54,329 nt of DNA from Prevotella sp. Lineage in GTDB: Bacteria; Bacteroidota; Bacteroidia; Bacteroidales; Bacteroidaceae. Below the pieces are notes generated by a model that did not search any database, was not told the origin of the DNA, and worked only from the letters and a program-made list of their open reading frames with translations. The stretch is from positions 1,607 to 55,935 of the forward strand of contig JAFLSF010000008.1 of assembly GCA_022511045.1 (NCBI GenBank), in the 5' to 3' direction. Below, one piece after another: positions 12,427-23,385 of the stretch. Made by a program: the position numbers and the translations under genes. Each line of letters opens with the position of its first letter. The first letter of the stretch is position 1.

Positions 12427-13503
12427 ATGAAGTTAGTCTATGATAATATAATATTTGGTATTCAACGTTTTGGAGGAATATCAGTAGTATGGCAAGAGTT
12501 GCTAGAGAGAATGCCAAAAATGATGCAAGATATTGCGTATGTTGATATAAAAGCGGAACAATTAGGCAACAACTATTCAAGAGGAAAGTTAATAATTCCT
12601 GCAAACTCTATAGTTCAAACTATCCAATGTCCCAAATTATTACGTTATTTACCTGTCCAACTTTATTCTAAAGAACCATTTTTATTTCATTCTTCCTATT
12701 ATCGTTATTGCACTCATCCTAAAGCTATAAATATTACGACAGTCCATGATTTTACTTATGAATTGTTTGTAAAAGGGTTTAAACAGAAATTACATACTTG
12801 GCAGAAATTCTCAGCGATACGTCATTCTGCTGCGATAGTGTGTATATCTGAACAAACGAAAAAAGATTTATTGAGATTGATGCCTGATATTGATGAAACG
12901 AAGGTAAATGTTATTTATAATGGAGTGTCGGACAAATTTCATGTCCTGAATGAAAAACTAGAAGTACAGTTGCCGTTTACTATTCAATCTTATGTAATAT
13001 TTATAGGACGGCGTGATTTTTATAAGAATTTCGATATAGTTGTTAAAAGTGTTTCAGCTACCTATTTGAATCTGTTAATAATAGGCAGTCCGCTCAATGA
13101 AATAGAAAAGTCATATATAAATAAGTTCTTGTCTCCTCACCGCTATAAATGCATGAGTCAGATTACAGATACACAACTTAACGAATTGTATAATTATGCA
13201 GCGGGGCTAGTATATCCTTCTTCTTATGAAGGATTTGGCTTACCAATCCTTGAGGCTCAACGAGCTGGTTGTCCTGTTATAGCATTGAATGTATCGTCTA
13301 TTCCAGAAGTCATTGGCAAGACACCTCTGATAATGAATAAATTATCAGAGGAAGAATTGATAGTCAAATTAAGGTTGTTAGCTAATTGGGAATTAATGAG
13401 ACAAGTACGCCAGGATGGGTTCTCTAATTCAAGATGTTTCAGTTGGTCAAAAATGGTTGAAGGGTATGCTCTGCTTTATCAAAGGTTAGCGCAAACTATA
13501 TAA
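12427..13503 (+). CDS. Family 4 glycosyltransferase
   Basis: A 358-residue GT-B fold transferase. The track starts at a GTG at 12418; the ATG at 12427 (MKLVYDNIIFG) is more likely. The C-terminal half holds the donor-site pattern: VIFIGRRDFYKNFDIV, then YPSSYEGFGLPILEAQRAG with the E-x7-E signature, and VSSIPEVIG. The N-terminal region FGIQRFGGIS is typical of the glycine-rich acceptor loop. Sugar specificity is unknown. The 3' end overlaps the convergent GT4 gene by 8 bp. Codon use is AT-rich. It forms an operon with the preceding GT2 gene. Confidence 0.88.
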   Translation: MKLVYDNIIFGIQRFGGISVVWQELLERMPKMMQDIAYVDIKAEQLGNNYSRGKLIIPANSIVQTIQCPKLLRYLPVQLYSKEPFLFHSSYYRYCTHPKAINITTVHDFTYELFVKGFKQKLHTWQKFSAIRHSAAIVCISEQTKKDLLRLMPDIDETKVNVIYNGVSDKFHVLNEKLEVQLPFTIQSYVIFIGRRDFYKNFDIVVKSVSATYLNLLIIGSPLNEIEKSYINKFLSPHRYKCMSQITDTQLNELYNYAAGLVYPSSYEGFGLPILEAQRAGCPVIALNVSSIPEVIGKTPLIMNKLSEEELIVKLRLLANWELMRQVRQDGFSNSRCFSWSKMVEGYALLYQRLAQTI

Positions 13504-14620
13504 TCTCCAAATAGACGAGTAGTCTTTCTATGATTCTCTCCCAATCATAATCTTTCAACTGCTGGGGATTAACAGTAGGTTTCTCACGTATTATATTTAA
13601 TATAGTTTGTTGCCATCTTTTTCTATCATAATCTTCAATAGTGTAAGCTCCATCTTTTCCTTTAGCAACCTCTATCATAGCTGTATTATGAGCAGTTATA
13701 ATAGGACAACCGCATAATAGAGCTTCTAATTGTGGCATCCCAAGTCCTTCCATCAGGGCCGCAGAAACGAAACAATTAGCACAGCAGTAAAGCAAAGCTA
13801 ATTCCTCGTTGTTAATATAACCACAGAAAATGGTAGATTCTTTTGGAAAGGAAGGGGATAGTATAGTGTCTTTTATGTCAGAATTTTTCCACCCTTTACC
13901 ACCAACAACAACTAATTGTATCTCATATTTTTGATATAGTTCAGGGATGATGTTTAGCAAAAACTTTAAGTTCTTTCTTGGTTCCAGAGATCCTACAAAA
14001 AGTATAAATTGATTTTTTATGCCGTATTTTTGTTTTATATTCTGCTGTTCCTCATGTGATAAATCCCTACGATAAAATACTTTGCGGTCTACTGCCCCTC
14101 CTATAAAAATATTTTGACAAAATCGAGTACGAAAATGCTCTTCAACTTTTGAGTTCGTATAGTATGAGTTTGCCCAAATGTAAGTTGCATTTGTGATGGC
14201 TTGCTTAAAACAAAAGATAGTTGCTATTCTATTTGTCCAGGACATTGTGTGTGGCATTTCGATATTGACAACATCATGAACAGTTATGATTGTTTTTGTT
14301 GTTGATGGAATGAAATAAGGTAGATGAGGGACAGGAGTATAATAAAGATCGATATGCAGTTTACGGCATAAATAAGGCACTAATAATTGTAATATAAAGA
14401 TATTTGGTAATTTGCGTGGGAAAAGTGTAGAATAATTAAGTAAAAAAAGATTATCAGAGTGGTAGAATAGTTCAGTTCTACTATCTATCTCTTTTGGAAG
14501 TAATATATAAAAAATATCTGATGGTCTTTGCTTTATCCATTCAGAAATAGCACTTGTAAAAAAGTTTCCAACGCCAGCAGAAAACTTACACCATGAACGT
14601 CCATCAACGAGTATTTTCAT
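13496..14620 (-). CDS. Family 4 glycosyltransferase
   Basis: A 374-residue GT-B fold enzyme. The N-terminus MKILVDGRSWCKFSAGVGNF carries the Gly-containing loop; the C-terminal half shows FILFVGSLEPRKNLKFLLN and VSAALMEGLGMPQLEALLCG, with the E-x7-E donor-binding motif, and a PIITAHNTAMIEV stretch. It would add a sugar to the repeat unit; donor unknown. It is the last gene of the long leftward operon of locus A, 5 bp after the GT2 gene. The 3' end overlaps the convergent GT4 gene. The DNA is very AT-rich. Confidence 0.87.
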   Translation of the reverse strand: MKILVDGRSWCKFSAGVGNFFTSAISEWIKQRPSDIFYILLPKEIDSRTELFYHSDNLFLLNYSTLFPRKLPNIFILQLLVPYLCRKLHIDLYYTPVPHLPYFIPSTTKTIITVHDVVNIEMPHTMSWTNRIATIFCFKQAITNATYIWANSYYTNSKVEEHFRTRFCQNIFIGGAVDRKVFYRRDLSHEEQQNIKQKYGIKNQFILFVGSLEPRKNLKFLLNIIPELYQKYEIQLVVVGGKGWKNSDIKDTILSPSFPKESTIFCGYINNEELALLYCCANCFVSAALMEGLGMPQLEALLCGCPIITAHNTAMIEVAKGKDGAYTIEDYDRKRWQQTILNIIREKPTVNPQQLKDYDWERIIERLLVYLEII

Positions 14621-14625
14621 AATAT

Positions 14626-15534
14626 TTATATCTGAATTATAACAAATAATTGTTTAAAGAGTTTCCATTTTTCTGTAATAGAAATATTAGGATTCAACCA
14701 AACACTTTGTCTTAAAATAGGATGTATAATACGATATATATAATACTTCCATTGAGGTTCTGTAAGTCGAAAATATATATACTCACTTCTCTGTTGTCTG
14801 AGAGTATCCCTAAGAAATTTAGAACATTCCTCTTTTTTAGAGGATTCTCCTTCTAAATGAACAATCTGAGGACCATGCATAACGATGTTGTTATATCCAT
14901 GTAACATAAACCTGTGTTCCATCTCGGTTTCTTCAAAATACATAAAAAAAGCTGGATGGAATGATCCACATTCGTCTAATACCTTTCGACTAATAAATAA
15001 GTCAGCTCCAGTCACATAGTCAACCTTCATCCATTTCTCTGGGTAGCTTATATCGGGTAACTTGAATAGATGTAAGCTTTTTAACATCGGAGTCCAGATG
15101 AGTTTTTGGATGTCATCTCTCATTTTGGGAAATTTTCCATAAGAGTGAATAATATTGCCCTGATAGTCCTTTAAATAACATCCTAATGCGCCTATTCTAC
15201 CTTGAAATTGTTTATAAAAGTCATAAAACATCTTTATTGCATTATTCTTAAGCAATGTGTCAGAGTTAAGAAAAAAAATATATTGTCCTCTAGCATATTC
15301 TAACCCTTTGTTATTAGCAGTCCCAAATCCAAGATTTTTACCAGTAGGGATGAATAATATATGTTTGTTCTCAGACAATGCCTCAATAGAACCGTCGGTA
15401 GAACCATTGTCTACAACAATGATTTCATAACTAATACCTTTTGTATGTAAAACAATACTATCAATACATGGCTTAAGGACATGCAATGTATTGTAATTAA
15501 CAATTATAATGGAAACATTTATATTTGCTTTCAT
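14626..15534 (-). CDS. Family 2 glycosyltransferase (rhamnosyltransferase-like)
   Basis: The track's ORF begins at 15648, but the first 38 residues have no family character and overlap the neighbouring gene. The ATG at 15534 gives MKANINVSIIIVNYN, the standard GT2 start, and creates a 4-bp ATGA overlap with the upstream gene, so 302 residues are annotated. Motifs: EIIVVDNGSTDGS, NLGFGTANNKG, FFLNSDTLL (metal site) and MYFEETEMEHRFMLHGY. This pattern fits the WcaA/RfbN-like transferases that often add rhamnose or related sugars; the actual donor is unknown. Part of the leftward operon of locus A. Confidence 0.87.
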   Translation of the reverse strand: MKANINVSIIIVNYNTLHVLKPCIDSIVLHTKGISYEIIVVDNGSTDGSIEALSENKHILFIPTGKNLGFGTANNKGLEYARGQYIFFLNSDTLLKNNAIKMFYDFYKQFQGRIGALGCYLKDYQGNIIHSYGKFPKMRDDIQKLIWTPMLKSLHLFKLPDISYPEKWMKVDYVTGADLFISRKVLDECGSFHPAFFMYFEETEMEHRFMLHGYNNIVMHGPQIVHLEGESSKKEECSKFLRDTLRQQRSEYIYFRLTEPQWKYYIYRIIHPILRQSVWLNPNISITEKWKLFKQLFVIIQI

Positions 15535-16253
15535 TGTTTGAAGATGGTTTTTATTACTTTCTGGCGCCACAAACCGAATCGCAAACGAATGTCTCGGTAA
15601 AAAATCATAGGAATAGTATCCATGCCATATATTACTTTGGCTGCCCAAGATTGTTCAGCACACCATAATCCGTTGGAGACTCCACCATCTTTTACGAATG
15701 CAATAGGAGTACTAATCTTTAAATATTGTGAAGCAGGAATAGCTAAAAAAAACAACAAATCACTGACAATGTATGGATGGGTAACAATATAGTAGCCATA
15801 TTGTTGATGTAAACTTTTACGATAGATGGCATTTTGGTGATGTATTTCACCTTTTTCCCTGTTTGTTTTATGCAGTTCTCTAGTACCATCATTATGATAT
15901 AAATAAAAGTCGCTGTATATAAATGACTTGCTTTGTGGAATTTCTTGATTAAAGATATTACTAAGTATATGTTCTGATGTAAATATATCACCAGCGTTTA
16001 AACATATAATCCATTCGCCTGTAGCTAAACGCACTCCTTTGTTTAATGCATCATAGATTCCGTTGTCTGGCTCACTAATTAAAATATCTATTTTATCATT
16101 ATAATGTTTTAGCACTTCTGTACTTCCATCTGTACTTCCTCCATCTATTATAATATACTCTTTGTCTGAATAGGTCTGAGAAATGACACTTATTATTGTC
16201 TTTTCCAAATCCTCTTGACAATTATAACAAATAGTAATAATAGATACTTTCAT
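15531..16253 (-). CDS. Family 2 glycosyltransferase
   Basis: A 240-residue GT-A fold transferase: MKVSIITICYNCQEDL, EYIIIDGGSTDGSTEV, GIYDALNKGVRLATGEW, then LNAGDIF in place of the more common NSDD metal motif. It resembles WcaE-type transferases of colanic-acid-like pathways. The C-terminal part is basic and may contact the membrane. Coupled to the next gene by an ATGA overlap; 80 bp separate it from the upstream flippase gene, with no promoter found there. Donor sugar unknown. Confidence 0.87.
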   Translation of the reverse strand: MKVSIITICYNCQEDLEKTIISVISQTYSDKEYIIIDGGSTDGSTEVLKHYNDKIDILISEPDNGIYDALNKGVRLATGEWIICLNAGDIFTSEHILSNIFNQEIPQSKSFIYSDFYLYHNDGTRELHKTNREKGEIHHQNAIYRKSLHQQYGYYIVTHPYIVSDLLFFLAIPASQYLKISTPIAFVKDGGVSNGLWCAEQSWAAKVIYGMDTIPMIFYRDIRLRFGLWRQKVIKTIFKQ

Positions 16254-16333: not shown

Positions 16334-17677
16334 TTATATTCTCCAAAAATCTTTTGCCGTTCCATTGAGTATTTTATGGAATTGAAGCATATTTACAAAA
16401 ATACTAGGGGCTGTGCATAAACACATGATAATCATAAACCAAAAGATGCTGTGTGTCTGTTGGGTGACGAACCACTCCAAAGGAATGAAAATAATAGTCA
16501 TGATAGTCATATATAATTGTAAGCGAAGTGCTCCGATGCCATTAAGAAAATAGGAATAGCGCATACTAAGTATTAATAAGTAGATATAAATAGCCATTAG
16601 AATAGTCATTCCGTATGGAACATGACAATTATTTCCAATCCACACTTTATAAAGCCAAGGAGATATTATTACCATTAGTACAAGTAAAAAACCAATGCAT
16701 ATTGACATTAGAGACATCTTTCGATTTGCTTCCCATATCCATGCAATGTCACCACGTTCATAAGCATCGGTAGTTGCATTCCAAAATGGCATGCAAATGA
16801 CAGAAAATAGAGCCATCACTAAGGTAATATAACGGTAAGCGATTTGGTAAGGTGTCACCATCTCTGGGGTGAAGAATTGTGATATTAGAATATTTGCTGT
16901 CATAAATTGGATGATAGCTGCTATTTGTAACCAAAAGAACTTTATCCCAATAGAGCCTAATTCTAAAGATGAATGCAAGTTGACAAATGTAAGAGATGGA
17001 CGTAGGTTAGGGTAGCGATAATAAAATGTATAAGGATAAGCAAGTAAATAAGCCAATAAAGGTGCTGCCGTATTGACAGTAACAATACAAAAAAATGATG
17101 CGTGATGGTTGATGTATAGTAACCAAGTAGCGATCAAAGCAAGGGTTTGGCCAATAGCTATGAGTAAATTGCTGATCGCAGGTAATTGCAAACCCATATA
17201 AATATTTCCAATAAATTTGAGGACAAAGGTCATGCAGACCAATGTTATTGCGCTGAACAAAGCTAAACGAAGTTCAGGGATTTGTTCTGGAATAACGTTT
17301 AATATACTATAAATGTTGACTTTCCAGACAAATATCAGTAAAACAAATAAAATAGGAAAAATAAGACAAATCAACATAGCCGCTGTTGAACTGACAATTT
17401 TACGAGCCTCCAGCCATTCTCCGTGAGCTACATGGGTTGCCAGTCTATTACGTAGTCCGTTACCTAGTCCAATATCCATTTGATCAATCCACACTAAGAG
17501 ACTACTTACGGTAAGCCATACGCCGTTTTGGTAAGCACCTAAACAATTAAGTGTCAAAGGAACCATCAATAATACTACCGCAGCTGACCATCCCTTTAAA
17601 ACCAATGATATAGTGATATTGGCATACAAAAAACGGGAACGTGTATTAGAACAATAATTAGCTGACTGTTTGTTCAT
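16334..17677 (-). CDS. Wzx-type polysaccharide repeat-unit flippase (locus A)
   Basis: A 447-residue integral membrane protein with about twelve hydrophobic segments. It fits the oligosaccharide flippase (Wzx, MATE-like) family that moves lipid-linked repeat units to the periplasmic face. The N-terminal region LVLKGWSAAVVLLMVPLTLN followed by YQNGVWLTVSSLLVWIDQMDIGLGNGLRNRLA is the family's typical first two helices, with the conserved GLGNGLRN loop. It overlaps the Wzz-Wzy fusion gene by 20 bp. A second flippase lies in locus B, implying two separate polysaccharides. Confidence 0.88.
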   Translation of the reverse strand: MNKQSANYCSNTRSRFLYANITISLVLKGWSAAVVLLMVPLTLNCLGAYQNGVWLTVSSLLVWIDQMDIGLGNGLRNRLATHVAHGEWLEARKIVSSTAAMLICLIFPILFVLLIFVWKVNIYSILNVIPEQIPELRLALFSAITLVCMTFVLKFIGNIYMGLQLPAISNLLIAIGQTLALIATWLLYINHHASFFCIVTVNTAAPLLAYLLAYPYTFYYRYPNLRPSLTFVNLHSSLELGSIGIKFFWLQIAAIIQFMTANILISQFFTPEMVTPYQIAYRYITLVMALFSVICMPFWNATTDAYERGDIAWIWEANRKMSLMSICIGFLLVLMVIISPWLYKVWIGNNCHVPYGMTILMAIYIYLLILSMRYSYFLNGIGALRLQLYMTIMTIIFIPLEWFVTQQTHSIFWFMIIMCLCTAPSIFVNMLQFHKILNGTAKDFWRI

Positions 17678-19658
17678 GAGTTGAAATTTGCATTCGGTTC
17701 TGAGTTAGTAAAAATACGATGACACAGAATTCTATAAATAAGATTGCAGTTTGTAGCAAGTTCTCATTGTAAAATTGTATAAGGATTACTTCTACAAGGA
17801 AAGTATATATACAACAATATACGGGAATACCCTGTCGACATTTGGAATATATCCACCCAAAAGTACTACCATATAAAATACCGAAAAATGCTACTCCTCG
17901 CATTCCAAAATCATTGTAGAAAGGTTGCATGATGGTATATACGTTTGTTGGTATAGGAACAAATACAAATTCTTGTAACCTATTTATATATTGGAAATTA
18001 AAGCCTAATTTATTTATATATGGATAGATTGAATTGAATGTGTTAGCACCAAAATTATCTGTAATTGTAATTGTCAATCTGTCAAAAGCAACAATAGGAG
18101 ATGTGACATATATAGCAAAAAAGTCGGAAAAGCTAATCTCCGTTGTACTATTGGCATCTGACCGCATTATATTGAAAAAGAAAAAAAAGACAATTATAAC
18201 AGCCATAGATAGTCCTATAGTTCGTATTTTAATATATTTTTTTTCATATAAAACGAATAGTGTGCCAAGTATCATAATTAAAATACCACTTTTTTCCATC
18301 ATCGCTAACTCAAGCAGCATGTTGGCTATAATACTTATTATGAGTTGCCATTTGGGAATTCGAGGATATAACCATATTGCTACAACAAAAACAGCAAAAT
18401 TAACACCTTGGGTATAATTTAACCAGCCAGCGGTGACATTTTCTTCTAGTATGAGTAGGCGGATATTTAAGAAAATATTGTCCAGATCGAACATACTGAC
18501 TACATCCCAGATGGTTTTTGCATATAGAATAGTCATTAAGATGGAAAGTACAAATAGAAAATGGAATAAATTCATATTGGCATGAACTACTTTCCTAAAA
18601 TCCACTTTATCTCTTATTTGTGGGTTATCAAAAAGCCAATAAGATATGATAGATGTAGGAATAAATGTTATAATCCATAAAATAAGACATTTGATAAATT
18701 TTGGACCGATAGGATAAAGAAAATTGCCTTGTGTTTTGTATAGTAAAAAAACAATACTCCAAATTGCTATGGTAAGTATCCAGGGAGAGAAAATATCGCC
18801 GAAATCTGTAATCAATATTCTCTCTTTCTTGATTTTTATATATTGTTGATAGAAGAAAACAAGAATTAGAGAAATAGAAAGAAAACTAAGGATATAACTT
18901 GCAAGATGTTCATTGGTAGTTTGAGGGACAGAAATGCTTTTTATCGTTACGAATGAATCTACAGTCTTATGTATCAATGCTTCTTTACGAACACAATCAG
19001 TAGTTGCATCTTTATATTCTTTATAAGTAAGATTAAGTTTTCGCCGTAATTCTTCTGCTTTAGTTTTTTCTTGGTAAGCATGATAATTAAAGTGGGAGTC
19101 GAAGTATCCTGTGTATTCTTTCTGTGCTTGCTTATATGCTGATGCAGTCTGAATATATTTTAATTTGGCATTTTCCAAATCAGAACGTGCAATGTCTTGT
19201 CGATAGGATGTAATACGGTGCTGCAGTGTGTGCACAATACTATCAAGTAACTGGGCCGCAATAAGAGCATCTTTATCAGTAAATTGTATGAGGAGTGTGT
19301 TGGTTTTGCTGTGGTATGAATATTCAATGTTGTCAATAATAGTTTCGATGGTGTCCGTAACACCCAAATACTCTCCATATGTCATTTGTTGCTTAATAAG
19401 TTGCATATGTGATATGGAACGGGCAAAGTCTTCTGTCTTTAATAATTGACAATAAATTTCAATATCATTCATGCCTGTATTGGCTCTGATACCAAGCAAA
19501 GATTTGATTCCAATCTTTTTTCCTATTGCTAAATCGGTTTCTCTGTATTCATCACTAATTTTAGTATATGCCGAATACTTTTTAGGTACACAAATCCACA
19601 CTACTATGGCGAGTAGTGTTGCTAAAATGGTGGTGAATATGTATGGATGTTTTTTCAA
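17658..19658 (-). CDS. Wzz-Wzy fusion: chain-length regulator joined to repeat-unit polymerase
   Basis: A 666-residue membrane protein with two parts. Residues 1-275 look like a complete Wzz-type domain: an N-terminal transmembrane helix (IFTTILATLLAIVVWICV), a periplasmic part with coiled-coil helices (about 150-225), and a second helix after VPQTTNEH (SYILSFLSISLILVFFY). Residues about 285-660 form a multi-helix polymerase of the oligosaccharide repeat unit polymerase type, with the typical late segment MQPFYNDFGMRGVAFFGILYG. There is no stop or frame change between the parts. Polymerase and chain-length regulator are normally separate proteins. A stand-alone Wzz gene lies immediately upstream and wzx downstream. 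Single-protein function is inference; an assembly artefact is unlikely because both parts share one clean frame. Confidence 0.85.
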   Translation of the reverse strand: MKKHPYIFTTILATLLAIVVWICVPKKYSAYTKISDEYRETDLAIGKKIGIKSLLGIRANTGMNDIEIYCQLLKTEDFARSISHMQLIKQQMTYGEYLGVTDTIETIIDNIEYSYHSKTNTLLIQFTDKDALIAAQLLDSIVHTLQHRITSYRQDIARSDLENAKLKYIQTASAYKQAQKEYTGYFDSHFNYHAYQEKTKAEELRRKLNLTYKEYKDATTDCVRKEALIHKTVDSFVTIKSISVPQTTNEHLASYILSFLSISLILVFFYQQYIKIKKERILITDFGDIFSPWILTIAIWSIVFLLYKTQGNFLYPIGPKFIKCLILWIITFIPTSIISYWLFDNPQIRDKVDFRKVVHANMNLFHFLFVLSILMTILYAKTIWDVVSMFDLDNIFLNIRLLILEENVTAGWLNYTQGVNFAVFVVAIWLYPRIPKWQLIISIIANMLLELAMMEKSGILIMILGTLFVLYEKKYIKIRTIGLSMAVIIVFFFFFNIMRSDANSTTEISFSDFFAIYVTSPIVAFDRLTITITDNFGANTFNSIYPYINKLGFNFQYINRLQEFVFVPIPTNVYTIMQPFYNDFGMRGVAFFGILYGSTFGWIYSKCRQGIPVYCCIYTFLVEVILIQFYNENLLQTAILFIEFCVIVFLLTQNRMQISTHEQTVS

Positions 19659-19683: not shown

Positions 19684-20748
19684 TTATATATTGATGAATT
19701 GCTCATGGTTTTTCCATGCCAGTATTCCTGTGCGGAGCATGAAACCAAGTAGCATCCATATAATCAGGGAAACAACCTTTGGACGGCTACTATGTTTGAT
19801 AGGTACAGTGGCCCGTTGTATGACGGTAAAAGCGGGGGTGCGCTCTTGAACCTTTGCCAGAGCTAATTGACGTTGCTCAACTACTTGTTGATAGATATTG
19901 TATTTTAACTGCATATCATTTTCAAGGTCTTCCTCTTTCATACGATAACTTTGCAGAATAACCTCTTGGTTGGCATCAGCATAGGCAGCATAAGTCTGGC
20001 GTGCTTTGTCGTATTGTTGGCGTGCGTCAGCATATAATTGGTTCATGTACTCCAAGTCGTTGCGGGCTTTCTTGGTGCGATAGTCTGTAATAGCTCGTTG
20101 CAGGTGGATCTGTACACTATCCGCTACAGTTGCGGCTATCAGTGGATCTTGATCTTCAATGACAATCGTAATGACATTTGTCTTTTTATCTACGGAACAA
20201 TCAATATTACGCGAAATGGTTTTTGCAATATCGTCTTCTTTCTTAGTTAGACGAAAAGGATTCACCTTGTGGCCTGGACCTGGCTCATTATCTGATTTTA
20301 GTTTCTCCATAAGATTAAGAATCCAAGCCTTTGGGTATGCATCTATGGCCAGTTCTTGATGATTCTGTAGATAGTCTTGATAAGTATACTGCTCACCAGT
20401 TTTGTCTTTGGTGACCTTAATAGGGAATAGCCCGACAATAAAATCAGTGGAGCCTACTAAATCTGGGTATATCTCTGGATAGATAGCATCGCCTGTCTGT
20501 CCCATCTTCATATTCATACCTACCATTGAGGCCAGAGAAGATATACTGCCAGAAAAACCATTGCCAGATTCTTCTGGAGCCAATATTACAGTAGACTTGT
20601 AAACTTTAGGCGTTCCGAAAGCTAAGAGTACACCAATGACACCAGCCGTGAGTGAATAGATACAAATCTTACGACGGTCAGTCCAAAGGATTCTGATAAC
20701 CTGTGTAAGGTTAATATTGATTATATTATTGCTTTTGCTTTCTTCCAT
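19684..20748 (-). CDS. Wzz/chain-length determinant protein (locus A)
   Basis: A 354-residue polysaccharide co-polymerase without a kinase domain. It has an N-terminal helix (ICIYSLTAGVIGVLLAFG), the Wzz signature KVYKSTVILAPEE, a Gly/Ser/Met-rich loop (SGSISSLASMVGMNMKMG), a long helical periplasmic part (about 200-290) and a second helix after IKHSSRPK (VSLIIWMLLGFML). It sets chain length or bridges polymerase and exporter. It lies 12 bp after the SLBB export gene and 25 bp before the Wzz-Wzy fusion, so two Wzz domains are encoded in tandem. The Pro-rich motif common before the last helix is present in reduced form (VPIKHSSRP). Confidence 0.88.
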   Translation of the reverse strand: MEESKSNNIININLTQVIRILWTDRRKICIYSLTAGVIGVLLAFGTPKVYKSTVILAPEESGNGFSGSISSLASMVGMNMKMGQTGDAIYPEIYPDLVGSTDFIVGLFPIKVTKDKTGEQYTYQDYLQNHQELAIDAYPKAWILNLMEKLKSDNEPGPGHKVNPFRLTKKEDDIAKTISRNIDCSVDKKTNVITIVIEDQDPLIAATVADSVQIHLQRAITDYRTKKARNDLEYMNQLYADARQQYDKARQTYAAYADANQEVILQSYRMKEEDLENDMQLKYNIYQQVVEQRQLALAKVQERTPAFTVIQRATVPIKHSSRPKVVSLIIWMLLGFMLRTGILAWKNHEQFINI

Positions 20749-20760
20749 ATTTTACTCTTT

Positions 20761-23385
20761 TTACTTCAACAGGTTAGTAAGAGTTGCACCCATAGTTGCA
20801 ATGGAGGCTGCAGTACTACCGATTGCAAGATATTCAGTGATGCTCATCTTACGATTCATAGCTTTTTGTGGAACAACGATTTCGCAACCAGGGCGAATCT
20901 TTGCGCCATCATTGACTTTGGCCACAGTACCATTCATATATATAATATATGCTTGGTTCTTTTTAGCATAGCGGTTATAGCCGCCAGCCTGATTGATGTA
21001 ATATTTGGCACTCTTACCTTCCATATAGGCTACGCTGTTGGGATACATCACCTCACCGTCAATCTTCACAGTACCGCTATACATTGGAATAAAGATATGG
21101 TCGCCTTCACGAAGTACAATATCAGCATCTCCACCAGGATTGGCTAAAGCTTTGTCAAGCTCAATACCAACATGATAAGTTTCTGGAATTTCTGTAATTT
21201 CCTCCTTGTCAATTGTCTGTGTCATTTCATCAATGGATCGGCTGTTGTTAATAGCTATCTCTTGCATGATACGCTCTTTCTCTTCTTTGCGCATTTTGGC
21301 TAGTTCTTCCAGACGAATGCGCTCGGCTTCATTAACCTTGCGTTCTAATCGGGCTCCTGGGATATAGGCCATATCCGTACCACCTCCTGCACGTTTGAAA
21401 AGGTCGCTCAGACGCTCATTTTTCTTGGTAAGGGTATAAGTGCCTCCAAACATGACCTCACCTTCAATAGTCACATTCTGCTGAGTGACGTAGCCAGGAC
21501 TCTGGCGGACATATACCTCATCGAAAGGCATCAGTTTAAAGGCAGGCTGGCCATCAATTACGAAACCGTCTTTCAACGAGAATTTAAAGGTCTGTGCCAG
21601 AATAGAGTCTGAAGTCAAAGCATTGGGGTTAGAGATGCGGCGAGAGACTAAGACGTTGTGCATCGAGGCATTCTCTTTTAGACCACCAGCCTGTAGAACG
21701 AAATCTTCCAAGGTCTCGTTGTCAGCATACTTATAAGTACCTGGATACATGACCTCACCATGAATGGCGATAGTTTGCTGAACGCGTGACTCTTGCTTGG
21801 TGGGAATGAACAGCACATCTTCGTTCTTCAACGGAATATCGGCTATGATGCCGCTCATGATGCCCTCAATGTCTACGGCTACGACCTCTAAGGTGCGGTC
21901 TGCTTTCATGCGGTGCATAACGGCATGTTGCGTAAAGGCCTCTTCGGTGACGCCTTCGGCATTTTCCAATAGGGTCTTTACACTATAGATGTTCTTGCCT
22001 ATCTGGTACATACCAGGACGGAATACAGCACCTTTCACTTCTACCATGTTTGAATAGCGGGGCAGAATAGAATCAACGCTAACGGAGTCGTTGTCGGCCA
22101 TGTGGAACGAGGCCATGTCGAACTCGTTGACGTTATAGACCGAGTACTGGGAACCAGACTTGCGAACAACACGTACCGACTTGCGGTAAGCATCTCCAGT
22201 AAAACCACCCGCATAGTCAATCAATGTGCCGACGCTCTCGTCCTTTTTCATCTCATAGTACATGGGACGCTTAACCTTACCAGTCACGTTCACCAAGCAA
22301 TCATAAGAGCCTACAACGATAACGTCGTCGTCGCCCAGACGAACATTCCCGCTCAGTTTTCCGTTTAAAATATAGTCATATACGTCAACGGTGCTCACCA
22401 ACTTGTTGTGCCGATATACTTTGATGTTACGCAAAGTACCAATCTCATTGGGACCACCCGCCATATAGAGAGCATGGAATACGGACGAGAAAGCTGATAA
22501 TGTGTAAGTACCAGGAGCCTTGACTTCGCCCATCACATTGACGACGATAGTACGTGTCTGGCCTACCGAAAGGCGAATTTTGGAACTGCTATAACGGGCT
22601 CCCAACTGATTGCGGACACGATTGTTAGCTTGTGCTACCGTCAGCCCAGCCACTTGGATGGGGCCAAAGTCCTCAATGACGATGAAGCCATCGGGGGTGA
22701 CAGTTTCTTGAATACTCTTTTGCGAGGCACCGTAGATGTCGACGAACACCGCATCGCCAGCTCCTAATATATAGTTTTCGGGTGTGGCAATGTTCATGTT
22801 TGGCTCGAAAGTCAAGTCCTCGTTGTTGAAGATGTCGTGTCCGAATATCTTCTTCCCGTCTTTACCTTCTTCTCGCTCCTTGTCTTTCAGATAGTTGCGT
22901 ATAACTTGGCGGTCGTAGATGTCCAAAGAGTCTGGCAGGAAATCATCCAACTCAGCCTTCATTTCAGTAGCATCTTCTTGCAGGTAACGCTTATTCTTGC
23001 CGTATTTGCTCAGCTTATCTTTCTGTTGGTTGCGTTGTTTGGCAAGTCTATCGTCCTTTAGTTTTTCCGTAGAGCTATTTTTCTCTTTACCGTTGTTGCG
23101 GCGCAGACGTTCGTCAATCATTTCGTCGTCCGTCATATCTTTATCTTTGACGGCGCCCAGTCCCTGATTTTTCTGCATACGCTCGGCCTTCTGGCGGACG
23201 CGGCGGATTTGGTCAATAGTGACGCCTTTCTGTATTAACTTGGTGACTATTTCCTGTTGTGACGAGCCAGCTTTCTGCTCCTTCATCACAAATTTGATAA
23301 TCTGGTCGTCCGACATTGACGATTGTGCGCTGATGCTGGTCAAGACAAACATTAGCATGCATAGTGAGAGAAAAACTTTCTTCAT
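20761..23385 (-). CDS. SLBB-domain polysaccharide export outer membrane protein (Wza-like)
   Basis: An 874-residue exported protein (signal peptide MKKVFLSLCMLMFVL...SISAQ, no lipobox). Residues about 25-150 are charged and helical, unlike E. coli Wza. The polysaccharide export domain begins near YILGAGDAVFVDIYG and QETVTPDGFIVIEDFGPIQVAGLT. Several SLBB repeats follow, each showing the pattern V..GEV..PGTY.L (GEVKAPGTYTL, GAVFRPGMYQI, GEVMYPGTYKY, GEVMFGGTYTL, GEVMYPNSVAY). The long size suggests a tall periplasmic channel. It would carry the polymer across the outer membrane. It precedes the Wzz gene by 12 bp. A C-terminal hydrophobic stretch (YLAIGSTAASIATMGATLTNLL) could anchor it. Confidence 0.9.
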   Translation of the reverse strand: MKKVFLSLCMLMFVLTSISAQSSMSDDQIIKFVMKEQKAGSSQQEIVTKLIQKGVTIDQIRRVRQKAERMQKNQGLGAVKDKDMTDDEMIDERLRRNNGKEKNSSTEKLKDDRLAKQRNQQKDKLSKYGKNKRYLQEDATEMKAELDDFLPDSLDIYDRQVIRNYLKDKEREEGKDGKKIFGHDIFNNEDLTFEPNMNIATPENYILGAGDAVFVDIYGASQKSIQETVTPDGFIVIEDFGPIQVAGLTVAQANNRVRNQLGARYSSSKIRLSVGQTRTIVVNVMGEVKAPGTYTLSAFSSVFHALYMAGGPNEIGTLRNIKVYRHNKLVSTVDVYDYILNGKLSGNVRLGDDDVIVVGSYDCLVNVTGKVKRPMYYEMKKDESVGTLIDYAGGFTGDAYRKSVRVVRKSGSQYSVYNVNEFDMASFHMADNDSVSVDSILPRYSNMVEVKGAVFRPGMYQIGKNIYSVKTLLENAEGVTEEAFTQHAVMHRMKADRTLEVVAVDIEGIMSGIIADIPLKNEDVLFIPTKQESRVQQTIAIHGEVMYPGTYKYADNETLEDFVLQAGGLKENASMHNVLVSRRISNPNALTSDSILAQTFKFSLKDGFVIDGQPAFKLMPFDEVYVRQSPGYVTQQNVTIEGEVMFGGTYTLTKKNERLSDLFKRAGGGTDMAYIPGARLERKVNEAERIRLEELAKMRKEEKERIMQEIAINNSRSIDEMTQTIDKEEITEIPETYHVGIELDKALANPGGDADIVLREGDHIFIPMYSGTVKIDGEVMYPNSVAYMEGKSAKYYINQAGGYNRYAKKNQAYIIYMNGTVAKVNDGAKIRPGCEIVVPQKAMNRKMSITEYLAIGSTAASIATMGATLTNLLK

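Follow-up and report, generated by a model that had tools for sequence, protein, structure and literature searches.

A gene joining a Wzz-like domain to a predicted repeat-unit polymerase in surface polysaccharide loci of Prevotella

Introduction

How the chain-length ring and the polymerase fit together in Wzx/Wzy-type systems is debated, the ring being regarded either as a scaffold for several polymerases or as a ring around one. The closest described complex is WzzE-WzyE of enterobacterial common antigen (PDB 8c0e), in which the two proteins occur at about 8:1 and Wzy, a polymerase of ~50 Å, lies in the ring lumen and fills a cavity of ~57 Å (PMC10030265). The TM2 helix of Wzz faces this cavity, and TM2 chimeras disturb length control (PMC10030265). 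TM2 has also been implicated in contact with Wzy, which is kept at low expression, and cytoplasmic parts are reported to mediate oligomer contacts (PMC12004945).

In this communication we describe a gene in which a Wzz-like chain is covalently joined to a polymerase. As in WzzE-WzyE, a Wzz of the PCP-1 type is combined with Wzy, and the fusion is made through the same helix that faces the Wzy-holding cavity; unlike WzzE-WzyE, which consists of two separate proteins, the fused loci always contain a second, separate Wzz as well. Two other systems, Wzc (PCP-2a) and KpsE (PCP-3), have a periplasmic fold like that of the fused Wzz part (Foldseek). Wzc, too, continues beyond TM2 into a further domain, but this is a cytoplasmic tyrosine kinase rather than a polymerase, and the partner of KpsE is an ABC transporter, whereas the fusion carries the polymerase itself. 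Split wzz1-wzz2-wzy loci (L040, L085, L092 and others) share with the fused loci two Wzz paralogues, TIGR04370-type polymerases and the kind of operon, but they encode Wzz2 and Wzy by two genes, and each product has a helix of its own where the fusion has a single one. Full-text searches of the open-access literature turned up no account of a natural Wzz-Wzy fusion.

The fused locus

The window, by which we mean the whole stretch of 54,329 nucleotides of Prevotella sp. DNA that was analysed, contains the following genes.

20761..23385 (-), Wza-like outer-membrane export protein, 874 aa, with Poly_export and SLBB repeats (Pfam)
19684..20748 (-), separate full-length Wzz (wzz1), 354 aa, ATG start
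17658..19658 (-), wzz-wzy fusion gene, 666 aa, TTG start, single open frame
16334..17677 (-), Wzx-type flippase, 447 aa, whose homologues match MatE / Polysacc_synt
15531-16253 (-), glycosyltransferase, Pfam GT2
14626-15648 (-), glycosyltransferase, Pfam GT2
13496-14620 (-), glycosyltransferase, Pfam GT1

A sequence-only reading of the window had proposed a natural Wzz-Wzy fusion at 17658-19658. This proved correct, the 666-codon minus-strand frame having no internal stop and its product containing both domains. The wzz1 gene lies 25 bp upstream, and its product matches Pfam Wzz with a score of 29.1 (cut-off 25.5). The flippase gene overlaps the 3′ end of the fusion by 20 bp; the window flippase itself has no Pfam match, but among the eight proteins of the flippase alignment MatE was found in seven and Polysacc_synt in four. 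Three glycosyltransferase genes follow on the same strand (13496..16253). At 874 aa and with many SLBB repeats, the Wza-like protein (20761-23385) is large; Wza of the E. coli type is shorter.

For comparison we assembled 25 fused loci, the window included, and 27 loci with separate genes. The main order of the fused loci is wza - wzz1 - fusion - wzx - glycosyltransferases. The separate Wzz gene that the same reading had placed just upstream is present, in full-length form, in all 25, and directly upstream in 24. Locus L101 (1142-7681) has three Wzz-like parts, namely a full-length Wzz, a short free Wzz and the fused one, and here it is the short free Wzz that directly precedes the fusion. The split relatives likewise encode both Wzz paralogues, together with a free polymerase, and show several gene orders; the second Wzz has a gene to itself, as a rule next to wzz1. 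In L040-L042, L076-L096, L102 and L103 the polymerase is free and a shorter second Wzz stands next to the full-length one; this two-Wzz arrangement is general in the Prevotella relatives, and no description of its role was found.

Start codon and composition

The window fusion was taken to begin with TTG because an in-frame stop lies three codons 5′ of it and no other conventional start retains TM1. TTG in the corresponding position, directly ahead of TM1, begins 16 of the 25 fusions, the other nine (L038 among them in this tally) beginning with ATG. For wzz1 in the same set of loci the figures are 46/52 for ATG and 2/52 for TTG (first-start rule). An earlier formulation, that TTG begins all fusions, was dropped when wider sampling gave the nine ATG starts. 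Retention of TTG despite divergence to about 40-50% identity suggests selection for weak initiation. The TTG start would thus fit low expression of the fusion, in line with the low Wzy expression that has been reported (PMC12004945), but this is suggestive only: the TTG genes are kin by descent, and with nine ATG starts such a limitation is not general.

The fusion is AT-rich, its GC content being 31% in the polymerase part and 34% in the Wzz part, versus 41% in wzz1 and 46% in wza, which agrees with an exchange of this segment. For the window we rejected programmed frameshifting from wzz1, since wzz1 ends 25 bp upstream of the TTG; the fusion-frame stop just before the TTG also contradicts it.

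The Wzz-like and polymerase halves

The product of the fusion gene is divided as follows.

18834..19658 (-), Wzz/PCP-like domain, about residues 1-275 (hhalign, AF2, Foldseek)
18822..18905 (-), shared helix, residues 252-279, Wzz TM2 in place of polymerase helix 1
17661..18800 (-), oligosaccharide repeat-unit polymerase (Wzy) domain, residues 287-666, TIGR04370

Domain searches recovered both halves, though with different ease. TIGR04370 is matched well above its cut-off, but the fused Wzz part scores only 16.7 bits against PF02706 (Wzz), under the gathering cut-off of 25.5. It is nevertheless clearly related to the upstream Wzz by hhalign (99.7%, E=2.5e-27, 258 columns) and by fold. An AF2 model of the fusion based on 71 sequences (pLDDT 88.7, pTM 0.82), which replaced a seven-sequence model with pLDDT 58.5, has a co-polymerase fold in the Wzz part, with TM1 at residues 5-23, TM2 at 252-279 and a periplasmic body consisting of an alpha/beta base and long helices (131-188 and 195-230). 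Foldseek matched this part to WzzE, including the WzzE of the WzzE:WzyE study, and to Wzc and KpsE, with E from 2.4e-6; a PDB sequence search with the fusion profile gave chance hits only.

In the main fusion clade the Wzz part is missing a cytoplasmic N-terminus of ~25 residues and about 45 periplasmic residues, and the proline-rich motif that precedes TM2 in Wzz1 is eroded or absent. The window's own rows in the alignment used here were faulty, being reduced to one residue, so that the shortening rests on the other rows and on hhalign. Several residues of the Wzz part are nearly invariant. Judged by profile comparison and modelling, the N-terminal half is a divergent, shortened Wzz-like domain; we call it divergent because it falls under the Pfam cut-off and its homology was recognized through hhalign to Wzz1. 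The claim that the domain is complete and has two membrane helices must accordingly be modified: both helices are present, but the domain is shortened and TM2 is shared with the polymerase. Profile searches gave no kinase match in the region after TM2, TIGR04370 being found there instead.

The TIGR04370 match extends over residues 287-649 (E=2.9e-41, 141.8 bits, cut-off 40) and covers positions 6-395 of the 396 in the model. All 25 fusions match at E<=0.01, the best at 1.6e-55. R400 is invariant in 48/48 fused and split polymerases, and with the PTN/PFxxDF motifs included conservation is 47-48/48; in the window fusion these latter form VPxPTNVY...PFxxDF at residues 567-584. G411 is invariant in the 25 fusions and gives, with R400, an RX10G spacing in the window. 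A motif of the RX10G type with a conserved arginine has reportedly been described for P. aeruginosa Wzy, to which R400/G411 may be equivalent. The fusion thus resembles other TIGR04370 polymerases in its full-length match and conserved motifs, and probably has polymerase activity; it differs from its free relatives in that their first helix is replaced by Wzz TM2.

The junction

Each of the 27 split loci has two hydrophobic segments at the place corresponding to the junction, one per gene: TM2 at the end of the second Wzz, and a helix of the polymerase's own at its beginning, 5-8 residues before F[S/A]PW. All 25 fusions have a single hydrophobic segment before the FSPW-type motif, and between this segment and [FKP][S/A]PW lie 15-26 linker residues (median 21); in the AF2 model of the window fusion the junction is one helix. 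Wzz TM2 therefore substitutes for the first polymerase helix in the fusions. Polymerase topology would be kept by this substitution, since under the positive-inside rule both helices would run from periplasm to cytoplasm. Genome G600 was considered as a frameshifted fusion and rejected; its locus is truly split, and two distinct helices are present.

Distribution

A scan of GTDB-species genomes together with whole-genome searches identified the 25 distinct fused genes. The other 24 are unbroken and 29-51% identical to the window fusion. Of 299 genomes sampled from the window's genus, 18 have the fused frame, and a 399-genome sample of the family yielded three further fusions outside the genus. 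Beyond the family, no strong full-length fusion of Wzz to a polymerase of this kind was found in 393 genomes of the order or in 346 of the phylum. One carrier is an isolate, Prevotella sp. tc2-28 (L023), and another fused locus (L105) lies on a 3.3-Mb single contig. In genome G049 a fused locus adjoins, back to back, a conventional pair of separate wzz and wzy genes (L036 4398-6661 (-), 7176-14041 (+)), so that a single genome contains both architectures. The sequence-only reading had named split orthologues, with a frameshift joining the genes in the window, as a finding that would speak against it; given 24 unbroken homologues from independent genomes, one of them an isolate and one on the 3.3-Mb contig, the Wzz-Wzy fusion is a conserved gene and not an artefact.

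Phylogeny and module exchange

Wzz2, whether fused or free, forms a clade apart from Wzz1 with support of 100/100, and from these trees the fused N-terminal half is best described as a second, shortened Wzz paralogue. The split/fused state changes three times on each domain tree. A repeated origin of the fusion is not claimed, a single origin not being rejected (AU p=0.14 and 0.15).

In three fusion genes the halves differ in their nearest relatives.

L025 4556-6562, mosaic fusion gene
L114 3219-5183, mosaic fusion gene
L023 4546-6552, mosaic fusion gene

Between L025 and L114 identity is 74% for the Wzz part but only 38% for the polymerase and 50% for the flippase; between L025 and L023 the corresponding values are 54%, 87% and 93%, and the change occurs at about residue 240, immediately ahead of TM2. 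Unlike Wzz parts on similar polymerases occur in other pairs too, such as L097 and L108, with 27% identity in the Wzz part and 70% in the polymerase. In the mosaic loci the flippase gene follows the polymerase half and not the Wzz half. Recombination near the junction has exchanged the polymerase modules, and wzx apparently with them, on the Wzz anchor. For the metagenome-derived members chimeric assembly is conceivable, but the mosaic pattern recurs.

A possible arrangement of the complex

The reading that we favour, with a probability of roughly 0.55, is that the fusion would act as a minority subunit seating the polymerase in a ring of separate Wzz within a Wzx/Wzy-type surface polysaccharide system; it would be the dedicated 'polymerase-seating' subunit of the chain-length ring. 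Wzz TM2 continues through a cytoplasmic linker of ~21 residues into the polymerase, in place of its helix 1. One fused subunit and some seven subunits of the Wzz encoded upstream would assemble together, the 8:1 stoichiometry applied here being taken from the enterobacterial system, and one polymerase would thereby be placed inside each ring. In the main fusion clade, the weak-type TTG start would hold the number of fused subunits below that of the separate Wzz. That the upstream Wzz and the fusion could form mixed oligomers had been suggested before, and the constant presence of a separate Wzz, in 24 of 25 loci immediately upstream, strengthens this. Because eight fused polymerases would be too large for the cavity and separate Wzz is always present, the best-supported arrangement is a mixed ring containing a single fused subunit.

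The fused Wzz might, however, not enter a ring, since the N-terminus and proline-rich motif are lost and cytoplasmic parts are reported to mediate oligomer contacts (PMC12004945). It would then be a mere membrane tether or processivity clamp near the active site of a polymerase sitting in a Wzz1-only ring. The loss of ~45 periplasmic residues, and Wzz parts down to 26-29% identity on similar polymerases, would suit such a role. We consider it unlikely, as the AF2 model keeps the full PCP fold, several Wzz-part residues are nearly invariant, and in the split relatives the second Wzz persists as a gene in its own right, normally next to wzz1.

A homo-oligomer of the fusion alone, with Wzz and Wzy at 1:1 and the separate Wzz serving another purpose, is improbable. 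One chain does contain both halves, and its Wzz part includes TM1, TM2 and a periplasmic body (AF2), but that part is shortened, every fused locus has a separate Wzz, and eight polymerases of ~50 Å exceed the TM2-lined cavity of ~57 Å (PMC10030265). The earlier statement that the fusion fixes the ratio at 1:1 is not supported on these grounds, nor does it agree with the frequent weak-type TTG and the published ~8:1.

Still harder to accept is a precursor that is cut after synthesis into separate Wzz2 and Wzy. Although the split relatives encode the two separately and the linker varies in sequence and is polar, cleavage there would yield a polymerase lacking helix 1, which is lost in all 25 fusions. 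An assembly error or frameshift joining two genes, conceivable for a window from a 98-contig assembly, is refuted by the independent unbroken homologues cited above.

Significance

In Prevotella-type gut and rumen bacteria, evolution has joined Wzz and Wzy via the helix that faces the cavity, the joint occupying one and the same topological position in all fusions found, and has always kept a second Wzz beside the fusion. The fusion may be a natural covalent snapshot in which a specialised Wzz paralogue seats exactly one polymerase in a mixed ring, TM2 doubles as helix 1 and polymerase modules differing in specificity are swapped, an interpretation of the whole that we put forward tentatively, at somewhat less than even odds. 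The split relatives offer ready comparison systems. The fusion offers a natural test of how Wzz and Wzy fit, and a stable single chain through which the structure of the complex might be solved; it constrains the geometry of ring and polymerase independently of enterobacterial cryo-EM, and suggests that polymerase helix 1 lies against Wzz TM2.
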